Source of the DNA: a virus
DNA: 64,000 nucleotides
Direction: 5' to 3' (one strand)
IMG/VR virus record: IMGVR_UViG_3300024336_000005
Coordinates: 62,001-126,000 of that record
Positions 42,887-56,194 of this stretch are shown here, one piece after another. Position 1 is the stretch's first letter; every line of letters starts with the position of its first letter. Below the pieces are notes generated by a model, which saw only the letters and a list, made by a program, of their open reading frames with translations, had not been told where the DNA came from and ran no database searches. Made by a program: the position numbers and the translations under genes.

Positions 42887-43080
42887 AAGAACTGATGTAA
42901 GAAGATTATCACAACTATAACGGCCCTAAGGTAGCGAGAGTCGGGCGACCGATGTTCCGCAATATAGACTCCTAATTCTCCAGTAGAATAAGAGTACGTG
43001 CTCAATGCCGTATCCCACTTTGTGGAGCGGTAATAGCGGCAGGGGTTCAACCCCTATTTCTTCTTCAACTCTTTGTTCTT
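42887..43080 (+). ncRNA. GAAC/GUUC element, copy 1 (carries 23S H69-like sequence)
   Basis: The closing stem AAGAAC (42887-42892) pairs with GTTCTT (43075-43080). It is followed by TGAT, a second stem AAGAAGA/TCTTCTT and TTATCA, as in the other copies. The interior holds 42913-42937, matching 24 of 25 bases of the universal 23S rRNA string AACTATAACGGTCCTAAGG-TAGCGA. A T-loop-like GGGGTTCAACCCC hairpin precedes the 3' strand. Confidence 0.7.
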
Positions 43081-43090
43081 GAGATTCAAA

Positions 43091-43816
43091 ATGAAAATAC
43101 AATATGTAAGTGATGTTCACACTGAATTTCACAAAGATTTGGGAATTCAGTGGGCTAAAACGATTCCTGTTGAAGGGGATGTTTTAGTTCTTGCTGGTGA
43201 TATTGTTATTTTCGAGAACCTCATTCAGGTCTTGACAATCATTTGTAATCGCTTTTCGAAGGTGGTATTTGTTAGCGGCAATCATGAGTATTACCGTTCA
43301 GATCGTAAAACGATTCATAACAAACTGCAAAAGATTGCAAATAAGTTTGACAATTTCCATCATTTAAATAATAATGTAGTTGTCATTGAGGATATACGCT
43401 TCGTCGGTACGACACTTTGGTGGAGCGCCCCTCCTTATGCTTGGCTAGCCATCATGAATGGCTTGAACGACTTTAGTCAGATACTTGGGTATCGCAAATG
43501 GGTCAGCCAGGCAAACATAAAAGCCAAACAGTTTCTACAAGAGAATGTGCGAGAAGGTGATATTGTTATCACCCATCATGCACCAACTTGGGAGGCGCAC
43601 CGACGGCGACAGTTGGGTAATGGAGTAATGCATTTTGCTTATTACAACAACTTAGATGATTTGATCCTTGATAACAAACCAAAATATTGGATTTATGGAC
43701 ACACGCACCATGAAGATCAATTTTCTATAGGGGATACACTTTTAGTGAATTCCCCGCATGATTATTGTCCTTATGAGGGCGGTTGGCCGAAGAAATTCGG
43801 CCTTTTAGATGTCTAG
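43091..43816 (+). CDS. Calcineurin-like metallophosphoesterase (241 aa)
   Basis: ATG 43091 chosen; the frame is open to 43073. Motifs SDVHTEF (7-13), GDIV (about 36-39), SGNHEYY (about 66-72), THHAP and YGHTH give a full MPE metal site. The low-specificity family includes nucleases and phosphodiesterases; substrate unknown. Confidence 0.8.
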   Translation: MKIQYVSDVHTEFHKDLGIQWAKTIPVEGDVLVLAGDIVIFENLIQVLTIICNRFSKVVFVSGNHEYYRSDRKTIHNKLQKIANKFDNFHHLNNNVVVIEDIRFVGTTLWWSAPPYAWLAIMNGLNDFSQILGYRKWVSQANIKAKQFLQENVREGDIVITHHAPTWEAHRRRQLGNGVMHFAYYNNLDDLILDNKPKYWIYGHTHHEDQFSIGDTLLVNSPHDYCPYEGGWPKKFGLLDV

Positions 43817-43923
43817 AAGGGTAGGCTGTTTTAAGCCGAGGGCAGACCCGTTAAGGGTCTCGCGAGCTAAGGAGGCGGAAGGGCCTTAGCTGATAGAGGT
43901 GAATCATTAGAACGACCTCTTAT
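43817..43923 (+). other. tRNA-cluster leader with three hairpins
   Basis: AGACCC/GGGTCT, AGCTAAGG/CCTTAGCT and GAGGT/ACCTC stems follow each other before tRNA-His. Probably RNA-processing structures. Confidence 0.5.
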
Positions 43924-44012
43924 GCCAGATGATGACCTAATTGGATAGGCGACACACTGTGAATGTGTTTGGCGAAAGCCTTTAGCGGGTTCGAATCCCG
44001 TCATTTGGCCCA
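43924..44012 (+). tRNA. tRNA-His(GTG)
   Basis: G-1 (43924) opposite C73, the hallmark of His tRNA; acceptor CCAGATG/CATTTGG, anticodon loop CTGTGAA in stem ACACA/TGTGT. Unusually for His, a long variable arm with a GGC-GAAA-GCC hairpin. CCA encoded. Confidence 0.85.
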
Positions 44013-44013
44013 T

Positions 44014-44100
44014 ATGAACTGAAGTGATTTCTTTATTACAAACCATTTAAGTTGGGTAACGGCGTTGTGGCACCCATTAGAAGTTACACTATTTGTTCAT
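44014..44100 (+). ncRNA. GAAC/GUUC element, copy 2 (tRNA spacer)
   Basis: ATGAAC (44014-44019) pairs with GTTCAT (44095-44100); then TGA, stem AGTGATTTCT with AGAAGTTACACT, and TTATTACA. It fills exactly the gap between tRNA-His and tRNA-Thr. Confidence 0.7.
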
Positions 44101-44103
44101 TTT

Positions 44104-44174
44104 GCTATTGTTTCTAGGTGAGAGGCCTGTGTGGTATACAGGTCAACAGGGTTCGATTCCCTGCAGTAGCACCA
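44104..44174 (+). tRNA. tRNA-Thr(GGT)
   Basis: Acceptor GCTATTG/CAGTAGC, anticodon arm CCTGT-GTGGTAT-ACAGG, T arm CAGGG/CCCTG, CCA encoded; short D arm. Confidence 0.85.
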
Positions 44175-44250
44175 TAAGGGCGTGCACCGGGACTCATACT
44201 CCCCTTTAAAACCCTTAAGGTTAGTGAGATCTGATCACCTCGCTGGCTCT

Positions 44251-54369: not shown

Positions 54370-54878
54370 GAATTCCGAGAGGACAATCTAAGATTTAATC
54401 TTAGACTAAACGTCACTGACATCTAGGTTCGAATCCTAGGCCCGCAACCATGTGCCTGCGCGATGCATCATAAGCAGCTCTTCAATGGGGGAGTGGTGGG
54501 TGAAAGTCCCATGGCACAACATAATGCGGGTTGGCGAAACTGGTATACGCGGGGACTTGTCCCTGTCAGACATGACACTTAAGCTTAAGCTATTCCTCTA
54601 CGCTTAGCTTGCTGAATCAATATCTAAATCAACGGATACAATCAAACTATAGGAAGACGAAGGTTGGATTCCTTCCGGGGTGACCATAGATGAACTGTTT
54701 GAGAGGGGTTGATCATGACTTTTCGCTATGCACAGATGGTTCATCTTTAACACCTTGTCGTACAGCTGCAAGTACATCCTTTATAAAGCTCAGAGTGTAT
54801 CGATGCCGTTAGATAATGAGACAGGATAAAATAAAATTGGTCTAGCAGACAGGTTAGTTCTGCTGGACCACCAAGGGC
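54370..54878 (+). other. Non-coding region with permuted tRNA and tRNA pieces
   Basis: No gene. Contains a TCTAAGAT/ATCTTAGA hairpin (about 54388-54406), the permuted tRNA at 54416-54569, an orphan T arm GAAGG-TTGGATT-CCTTC with CCA (about 54659-54686) and a GATGAAC/GTTCATC-closed fold (54692-54748) that may be a diverged GAAC/GUUC element. Confidence 0.5.
54416..54569 (+). tRNA. Circularly permuted tRNA with 74-nt linker
   Basis: T arm CTAGG-TTCGAAT-CCTAG (54423-54439), acceptor strand GCCCGCA (54440-54446), A73 and encoded CCA (54448-54450), then a linker closed by TGTGCC/GGCACA, then TGCGGGT (54525-54531), fully complementary to GCCCGCA, TG and a Leu-like D arm. CTGACA (54416-54421) pairs with TGTCAG (54564-54569), joining leader and trailer where the anticodon stem would be. 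Confidence 0.6.
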
Positions 54879-54948
54879 CTTTAGCTCATTTGGGCAGAGC
54901 GCTGCACTTGCAATGCGGAGGTGATCGGTTCAATCCCGATAAGGTCCA
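54875..54948 (+). tRNA. tRNA-Ala(TGC)
   Basis: Acceptor GGGCCTT/AAGGTCC, anticodon arm CTGCA-CTTGCAA-TGCGG, T arm ATCGG/CCGAT. CCA not encoded. Confidence 0.92.
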
Positions 54949-54978
54949 GTTAGTTAGAATCATTGAAGGAAGAAGAAG

Positions 54979-55359
54979 ATGTTTAAAGATTGTATTCTTA
55001 TAGTTTGGGCTCCTGATGCAGCTAAACTTGAGAGCCTACCTTCAGGCTCAGTTGCTGCACTGATGGAGACAATGTGGTTTGCTCCTCCTGATCCTTATGA
55101 ATCCTTTCAATACTTGAAAGAGAAATTCAACATAAAGGACAGAGCTTTGCGTCTGGCTGGAAGGTCTTACGATCTTGATATCGTAAGCCTTAACCTATCT
55201 TCAGCTCAGATGAAAGAGTGGGCAAAGGATGCACACATTCCCTATCTTAGGTTTAATGAGACATCGTGGAAGGATCGGAACTTGGATGTTGGCGATTTAG
55301 CAGCTGTTACGATGTGTCTGTTGGGTTCATCAGACACTAGGTATATTGATACACTATAG
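54979..55359 (+). CDS. Unknown protein (126 aa)
   Basis: GAAGGAAG before ATG. Soluble alpha/beta. Unknown. Confidence 0.7.
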   Translation: MFKDCILIVWAPDAAKLESLPSGSVAALMETMWFAPPDPYESFQYLKEKFNIKDRALRLAGRSYDLDIVSLNLSSAQMKEWAKDAHIPYLRFNETSWKDRNLDVGDLAAVTMCLLGSSDTRYIDTL

Positions 55360-55372
55360 AAAGGGATTCGAA

Positions 55373-55636
55373 ATGAAGATTAATCGCGAGACAGAGAGTA
55401 CTTTTATTGCCGAGCTTAATGAGCTCGAGCTTAAGATTTTTGTGGGTCTGTTGGCCTTCGTTAGGATGGAAGAGACTGGTGCGGGTGAAGCTGTATATGA
55501 CATGCTTGAGGCATGTGAAGGCGCACTTGAGCTAAACGATGATGAGCTAGACGATCAGATCTTTAGCAAGGTCTTCTCCTATGAGGTTGATGGTGGCCAT
55601 CATGGACTTGATGTAAGTGGCTTTGATGTCCAGTAG
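55373..55636 (+). CDS. Unknown acidic protein (87 aa)
   Basis: ATG 55373 with AAAGGG upstream. Very acidic helical protein; overlaps the next gene. Confidence 0.65.
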   Translation: MKINRETESTFIAELNELELKIFVGLLAFVRMEETGAGEAVYDMLEACEGALELNDDELDDQIFSKVFSYEVDGGHHGLDVSGFDVQ

Positions 55637-56045
55637 TGGGGTCCATGATCTCATAAAGGAGAGGTTTAATCAGGGGGATGTGCGCGCCGGGTGCAGTTGT
55701 CCTGATGGATGGGTCCCCTTGGTTGAGAAGCTTGTGAATCATATCCACTGGGTCTTAACTCATGGGATCACATGGGACCAACAGCACGGTGGCTTTCCTG
55801 ATAGAAGTCTTGCCTTTGAGGTGACTCAAGTTAAGAGTAAGTTTGGCGGCCTTAGATTTTACTATGATATGCGAGGGGATACAGACTGTTCTCTCGCGTA
55901 TAAGATAAGAGGGGCGATGGCTTTTGCTGAGTCCCTCTCGTACACAATCTGTATGGATTGTGGTGCGACAGATGATGTTTGCATAAGGAAGCCGGGGTGG
56001 TTAGCTACCCTCTGTCCTTCTTGTGCTGCTAAAGGGGTGGCTTAG
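55626..56045 (+). CDS. Zinc-ribbon protein with KFGGLRFYYD motif (139 aa)
   Basis: ATG 55626. CSCPDGW near the N terminus, KFGGLRFYYD in the middle (a motif recurrent in phage hypotheticals) and a C-terminal CMDCG...CPSC ribbon. Function unknown. Confidence 0.7.
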   Translation: MSSSGVHDLIKERFNQGDVRAGCSCPDGWVPLVEKLVNHIHWVLTHGITWDQQHGGFPDRSLAFEVTQVKSKFGGLRFYYDMRGDTDCSLAYKIRGAMAFAESLSYTICMDCGATDDVCIRKPGWLATLCPSCAAKGVA

Positions 56046-56059
56046 CGGCCACCTTATTA

Positions 56060-56194
56060 AAGAACTGACGATTTTAGATTATCATTATACCAAACCAATA
56101 AAGAGAGGGTTCGACTCCCCAGGGATGGTGAAGTGGTTTCACACATAGGCTCAAATCCTATGGAATTCCTTATTCTAAATCAATTTTTGTTCTT
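56060..56194 (+). ncRNA. GAAC/GUUC element, copy 6 (tRNA-like cargo)
   Basis: AAGAAC (56060-56065) pairs with GTTCTT (56189-56194); then TGAC, stem GATTTTAGA/TCTAAATC and TTATCA. The interior has a T-loop-like GGGTTCGACTCCC followed by a D-arm-like GTGA/TCAC and a perfect anticodon-type arm ATAGG-CTCAAAT-CCTAT (56145-56161, anticodon CAA). T arm before D arm again indicates permutation, but no acceptor pairing is clear. Ends 3 nt before tRNA-Glu. Confidence 0.65.

Follow-up and report, generated by a model that had tools for sequence, protein, structure and literature searches.

Predicted Ro60-type Y RNAs beside a phage Ro60 gene, one of them carrying a segment of 23S ribosomal RNA

A Ro60 gene and six RNA elements

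The stretch analysed here, 64,000 nucleotides (nt) of the IMG/VR virus record IMGVR_UViG_3300024336_000005 (its positions 62,001 to 126,000; we call it the window and number positions along its whole length), holds a gene for a Ro60/Rsr protein and six RNA elements, E1–E6, all on the plus strand. The protein gene, ro60 (40773..42416, plus strand), ends 470 nt upstream of E1, and its product of 547 amino acids has a TROVE domain and a Ro60 vWA domain, identified by matches to Pfam (vWA_Ro60, 9e-47; TROVE, 2e-39), to PHROG 850, an RNA-binding protein (2e-66), and to solved structures, the nearest of which are vertebrate Ro60 (9nen/1yvp, E about 1e-108 to 1e-104) and the Rsr of D. radiodurans (2nvo). 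It shares 39% identity with Ro-like proteins of mycobacteriophages, and homologues occur in 340 phage records, among which actinobacteriophages predominate. TROVE proteins are also known in jumbo phages (PMC7824862).

A sequence-only reading of the window had proposed a family of structured RNA elements in six places, and all six segments are present where it put them. E1 (42887..43080) consists of an outer stem, P1 (AAGAAC/GTTCTT), a 5' loop TGATGT, a second stem (AAGAAGA/TCTTCTT), TTATCA, a cargo and a 3' loop CAACTCTTT. E2 (44014..44100), between tRNA-His and tRNA-Thr, and E3 (44457..44523; 67 nt), between tRNA-Glu and tRNA-Met, are minimal copies that occupy the gaps between these tRNAs to within 1–5 nt. 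E4 (47320..47492; second stem TAGG/CCTA) lies upstream of tRNA-Tyr, E5 (49133..49250) begins 1 nt 3' of tRNA-Lys and E6 (56060..56194) ends 3 nt 5' of tRNA-Glu. The elements had been described as sitting close to tRNA ends, which is right for the spacing (1–6 nt) but needs qualifying, as E4, E5 and E6 adjoin one tRNA each and E1 adjoins none. Because of this spacing, most of the elements are probably freed by tRNA-processing enzymes.

All six follow a common plan, with an outer stem of 6 base pairs (bp), an internal loop of the form UGANG / ...UUU, a second stem whose sequence differs from copy to copy, and then UUAYHA. Each begins with NNGAACTGA and ends with TTGTTCNN, and both outer pairs form in six of six. 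GAACTGA is identical throughout, as is TTGTTC; the longer 3' end TTTGTTC, which had been put forward as common to the family, is exact in E1, E2, E3 and E6 only, with CTTGTTC in E4 and E5. The six sites with these ends in the window compare with 81 in total, and never more than two at once, in 1500 dinucleotide-preserving shuffles of it. After the second stem, TTAYHA stands in every copy (TTATCA three times, TTATCT, TTATTA and TTACCA), in line with the proposed TTATCA or close variant.

The second stem, too, pairs in every copy as proposed. Its native lengths in E1–E6 are 7, 8, 6, 4, 5 and 6 bp; of 30 mismatched pairings obtained by swapping arms, three reach 4 bp and none reaches 5 bp, and the native assignment scores best among all 720 permutations. 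Because swapping destroys the stem and no permutation outdoes the native one, the structure is backed by covariation among E1–E6. A descriptor search of the whole genome retrieved E1, E2, E3, E5 and E6 plus one match on the opposite strand; E4, whose 5' loop is longer (10 nt), fell outside its result.

The same architecture beside ro in other phages

The same architecture recurs next to ro in other phages. We examined the surroundings of ro in eight isolates (Pumpernickel, A3Wally, TinyTim, BlueNGold, Faust, Karimac, Sparky and Coruscant) with a Y RNA descriptor consisting of P1, 6–11 nt, stem 2, UUAUC, cargo, stem 2', 8–15 nt and P1', which E1 satisfies fully. Every isolate has one to four copies near ro, compared with three in total on the opposite strands; a few of the plus-strand matches overlap coding sequence or tRNAs, and chance probably explains these. 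The 5' loop of the isolate copies mostly begins with CGA, and their second stem terminates in GG, followed by UUAUC. An alignment-based Ro scan of viral contigs brought in 464 relatives (a scan of viral contigs with a single protein query gave no match). When a stricter descriptor was applied to 89 ro loci, 80 of them from IMG/VR, it gave 103 matches as against 11 on the opposite strand, spread over 49 loci, with up to nine at one locus and cargos of 14 to 210 nt. The 5' loop of these relatives is CGA or UGA, and the 3' loop mostly ends in ACUU or CCUU.

The window contributed nothing to R1, a covariance model trained on 38 Y RNAs with short cargos taken from other viruses. Run unfiltered over both strands of the window, it placed four of the six elements at the top, E3 with 31.3 bits (E=2.5e-5), E5 with 24.6 (E=0.0011), E6 with 14.7 and E2 with 12.4, and E3 is its best match in the entire record as well. 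Of the eight isolates that encode Ro, R1 matches seven; of four large phages where ro was not detected, it matches none. Two-sided changes occur at 16 of 16 pairs among its 38 sequences, a figure that is biased upward because pairing was a criterion of their selection.

Comparison with Rfam places the elements beside the known families and outside them. The interior of E4 holds a putative YrlA-like effector module (47375..47427, plus strand) made up of a T arm, an acceptor-like stem CGATCC-GAAA-GGATCG and a D arm, and this weak match is the top one of the record to the YrlA family (21.1 bits, E=0.005, model positions 29–81). YrlA matches also occur near ro in relatives, and the eight known Ro phages likewise score below the cut-off, six of them at 30–52 bits; matches under about 20 bits were set aside because they are mostly ordinary tRNAs and control genomes give them too. 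Weak YrlA matches lie as well at about 22060–22110 and 22300–22358 of the window, within and just past a region (21974–22240) where AAGATACCCTTAASTGGGCG..GGTGRAAGGCCCC occurs twice and precedes permuted sequence of T-arm/acceptor-like type with no Ro stem.

The conserved core, the CUGANG sequence, which resembles part of the hammerhead core, and the circularly permuted cargo would also fit a self-processing outer stem, as in a novel ribozyme or a mobile element of intron type. We give this idea next to no weight, in view of the strong linkage to ro, of minimal copies that, at 67 nt, could not accommodate a group I or group II intron, and of the Rfam intron and ribozyme models, none of which matches in 42300–57000 even at E up to 10. 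As for its particular forms, a hammerhead reading of CUGANG finds neither the GAAA nor the NUH parts of a hammerhead and no Rfam match, and we rejected a group I intron or permuted-exon reading on account of the short length of the elements.

Several points weigh against counting E1–E6 among the Y RNAs. The strict descriptor found no match in 40 of the 89 ro loci. R1 did not pick out E1 or E4 individually in the window, which we put down to their long cargo and, in E4, to the 10-nt 5' loop. The descriptor that gathered the relatives was partly inspired by the window elements, so that pair counts among the relatives are inflated. The E4 module stays below the YrlA gathering score of 69, and the metazoan Y_RNA family (RF00019) has no match in the record at E up to 10, so no existing Rfam family claims the elements at its threshold. 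Finally, their Ro site, GAAC-UGA / UUU-GUUC, departs from the common GGC-CGA / ACUU-GCC, although the UGA loop is present in nine of 90 relatives.

The TROVE domain of the window's Ro60 reads A-R-P-K where the consensus of phage Ro proteins is A-H-P-K, and in Xenopus Ro60 the corresponding histidine is important for Y RNA binding. This change may be paired with the altered Ro-site sequence of E1–E6.

Taken together, the R1 ranking, the fit of E1 to the descriptor and the YrlA match of E4, with no match to RF00019, lead us to file E1–E6 as Ro60-type Y RNAs that belong to neither the YrlA nor the Y_RNA family of Rfam as such. We hold it very probable that they form one set of such RNAs, binding by Ro60 being itself predicted. 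What the sequence-only reading had called a new RNA class is indeed a structured, covarying family with exchangeable interiors, but the class is not new, being that of the Ro60-associated Y RNAs.

Among the nearest known systems are the YrlA and YrlB RNAs of rsr operons (RF02553; Salmonella, Deinococcus, Mycobacterium). Like them, the elements have a Ro60-family gene nearby and a closed lower stem with an internal loop as Ro site, and E4 appears to share their permuted tRNA effector; unlike them, the window has six copies with varied interiors, one of them a 23S segment, a Ro site of GAAC-UGA in place of GGC-CGA, and no rtcB found in the record. Metazoan Y RNAs (RF00019) also build a lower stem from their paired ends, with an asymmetric Ro60 loop, and human Y RNAs likewise carry GUUAU after the upper stem. 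Phage-encoded Ro60 homologues with Y RNAs near tRNA genes are found in mycobacteriophages and, with putative Y RNAs, in Listeria phage CKA15, and in comparison with these the window phage has more copies and an rRNA-mimic cargo in one. The mycobacteriophage Y RNAs are already known (Chen et al. 2014, as cited in PMC12282133).

Interiors of tRNA-like and 23S-like sequence

The interiors vary as the sequence-only reading had described, with 23S-like sequence in E1, little content in E2 and E3, and tRNA-like sequence in E4 and, judged by eye, in E5 and E6. The last two contain T-arm pieces, in E5 a T-arm/acceptor-like cargo and in E6 a permuted tRNA-like one with T, D and anticodon-like arms; a permuted tRNA module of the YrlA form is absent from E1–E3. 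The T and D arms of E4–E6, together with the placement 1–6 nt from tRNAs, might mark permuted tRNA genes or spacers of a tRNA array, with stems that unite tRNA halves and yield a working tRNA, as known from the permuted tRNAs of algae. This is very unlikely for a set in which tRNA content is lacking from E2 and E3 and E1 holds 23S sequence, in which a GAAA loop joins the acceptor-like ends of E4, as in YrlA, and whose module, with a wide range of cargos, adjoins ro in other phages.

The cargo of E1 contains a 23S ribosomal RNA (rRNA) mimic right after UUAUC. The segment (42913..42937, plus strand; AACUAUAACGGCCCUAAGGUAGCGA) corresponds to about 1913–1937 of E. coli rrlA, that is, the helix 69 (H69) loop and 3' strand into H70/71, with one difference in 25 consecutive nt (E=6e-6 against rRNA). 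Of 23S helix 69–71, the region of intersubunit bridge B2a, E1 has this segment only, set inside a Y RNA and without the surrounding rRNA. A scan of viral contigs found the 19-nt core in 16 stretches. One of them, L128, has the core behind a canonical Ro stem (ACGAGC|CGAAGGC|TAGGG|TTATCAT ... TCCTA|TCCGCACACTT|GCTCGT), and ro starts about 300 nt downstream of this Y RNA. Bacterial genome contigs, scanned by pattern for TTATC followed by the core within 9 nt, gave three, L221, L222 and L223, each of which carries tRNA arrays and also ro; the 23S-core Y RNA lies about 170 nt past ro in L221 and L223, and about 1.4 kb from it in L222, with other Y-like modules between. These three retain the 5' strand of helix 69 as well, CCGUAACUAUAACGG in L221 and L223 and 30 exact nt in L222. 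As L221 and L223 are close relatives, the four contigs, all encoding Ro60, amount to three independent lineages besides that of E1.

In three further contigs (L122, L132 and L134) the core lies inside RNAs that are closed by stems of 8–12 bp and have a variant loop (a Y-like module such as CTCGAATGCCGACAGGGATTACAAT), and the records of L122 and L134 carry divergent ro genes. An alignment of eight 23S-core RNAs has TAACGGYCCTAAGGTAGCGA nearly invariant, and by eye a GNRA-type hairpin comes next in most. One stretch, L014, is a fragment of a real 23S gene and not a mimic, and a 5S rRNA match at window position 28293 (E=0.06) lies within an open reading frame and is due to chance. Exact 23S 1913–1937 also stands in an unrelated AT-rich phage (L013, about 8702–9020 of its reverse strand, and L012), as part of a non-coding RNA that is closed by the stem AGATTCAT/ATGAATCT and directly follows a tRNA; ro was not detected in that phage record.

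Such conservation might instead reflect selection on DNA. The invariant block AACGGYCCTAAGGTAGCGA falls within what we take to be the I-CeuI site, so the 23S segment of E1 and its relatives could be kept as the target of an I-CeuI-type homing endonuclease and mark homing events, with no RNA mimicry involved, and three viral contigs (L124, L125 and L127) do hold the block with no visible Y module. We think this improbable, given that in the cases with a canonical Ro stem the 23S segment starts within about 10 nt of UUAUC and on the RNA-sense strand, that L221–L223 have kept the 5' strand of H69 (CCGU or CGU), which restores the hairpin, and that a GNRA-type hairpin usually follows the segment. 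On balance we favour a hitherto unrecognised type of Y RNA, used by phages and by phage-like contigs in bacterial assemblies, in which a mimic of 23S helix 69–71 serves as effector and would couple the Ro60 ring either to the ribosome or to some enzyme recognising this segment, in takeover or counter-defence. We found no description of Y RNAs that include a piece of ribosomal RNA in the openly available literature, which is not proof of absence; with the Y RNA class itself already known, it is the 23S-mimic interior of E1 and its relatives that looks undescribed.

The record contains other unusual RNA loci. At about 52694–53035 lies a stand-alone RNA that mimics the 23S GTPase-associated centre (H42–44), in the form CCAGGAGGTGGGCTTAGAAGCAGCCATCCTTTAAAGA ... 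insert of about 270 nt ... AGCGTAATAGCACACTGG. We found its core pattern in 66 stretches of IMG/VR, one of which is the real rRNA of L014, and in phages such as GAP32, XacN1, XaC1, CBB and Aeromonas 4_4572, mostly unannotated, and the second half often follows 110–360 nt downstream of the core. No Rfam family covers it, a weak large-subunit rRNA match being the only one, and it looks like an undescribed and widespread RNA family of large phages. An apparent permuted Ro hairpin within it (AACTCTTTGTTCT-ATTT-TAGAACTGG, about 52935–52960) is suggestive only, as its second stem was not found.

At 46126–46860, a tRNA-like 5' half (GGCAGTGGTGTAATGG...) and 3' half (...GGTTCAAGTCCTTGCTGCCG) appear to flank an intact tRNA-Trp and a reverse-strand frame, possibly of HNH type, an arrangement that would be a tRNA gene split by a second tRNA and a homing gene nested within it; similar reverse-strand frames lie beside tRNAs at about 47780–48490 and 50180–50630. 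A tmRNA match at 23869–24490 spans 622 nt for a model of 374 positions, indicating a large insertion, and a tRNA match of 130 nt at 59165–59294 has extra sequence inserted in its anticodon arm, which could be intron-like or an enlargement of the arm. Outside the window, the DNA polymerase III alpha gene of the same record (L010, 2221–2400) looks by eye to be split by an intein (frame ...FLLADGQVASNCFNKSHSVAY...).

Proposed function of the Y RNA set

The site at which a Y RNA is bound by Ro60 proteins is a lower stem containing an asymmetric internal loop, and a bacterial Y RNA, bound to Rsr through its stem, gates the central hole and tethers an effector such as PNPase with its other end (PMC4726728). 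Read in this way, each of E1–E6 would present a Ro60-binding module, formed by the lower stem NNGAAC/GUUCNN, the asymmetric loop UGANG.. / ..YNUUU and the upper stem ending in UUAUC. We infer that the elements are expressed and bound by the phage's own Ro60. The swappable interior would then be an effector module that sets what the Ro ribonucleoprotein (RNP) is tied to. By analogy, each head could direct or shield a different class of RNA: the permuted tRNA mimics of E4–E6, like that of bacterial YrlA, might serve tRNA-acting enzymes, the 23S head of E1 might engage the ribosome or else some factor recognising helix 69–71, and E2 and E3, which have no head, might act as a gate only.

Rsr has a role in rRNA maturation and decay in Deinococcus (PMC4726728), and for the tRNA mimic of YrlA a protective role as competitor against a nuclease has been suggested (PMC7790460). 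We give about even chances to a tether model in which the cargo ties the Ro RNP to a nuclease or to an rRNA or ribosome factor. A decoy role, with the cargo shielding the tRNA and ribosomes of the phage against nucleases of the host, seems to us possible but rather unlikely.

With these assignments, anonymous RNA elements of a phage become part of a defined RNP whose protein partner can be named, and phage Y RNAs are seen to occur as multi-copy sets with swappable heads. An rRNA-headed Y RNA would offer a direct handle on what Ro60 RNPs do to rRNA and on how Rsr is directed there, and it suggests that phages may use rRNA mimicry, beyond tRNA mimicry, as a strategy.

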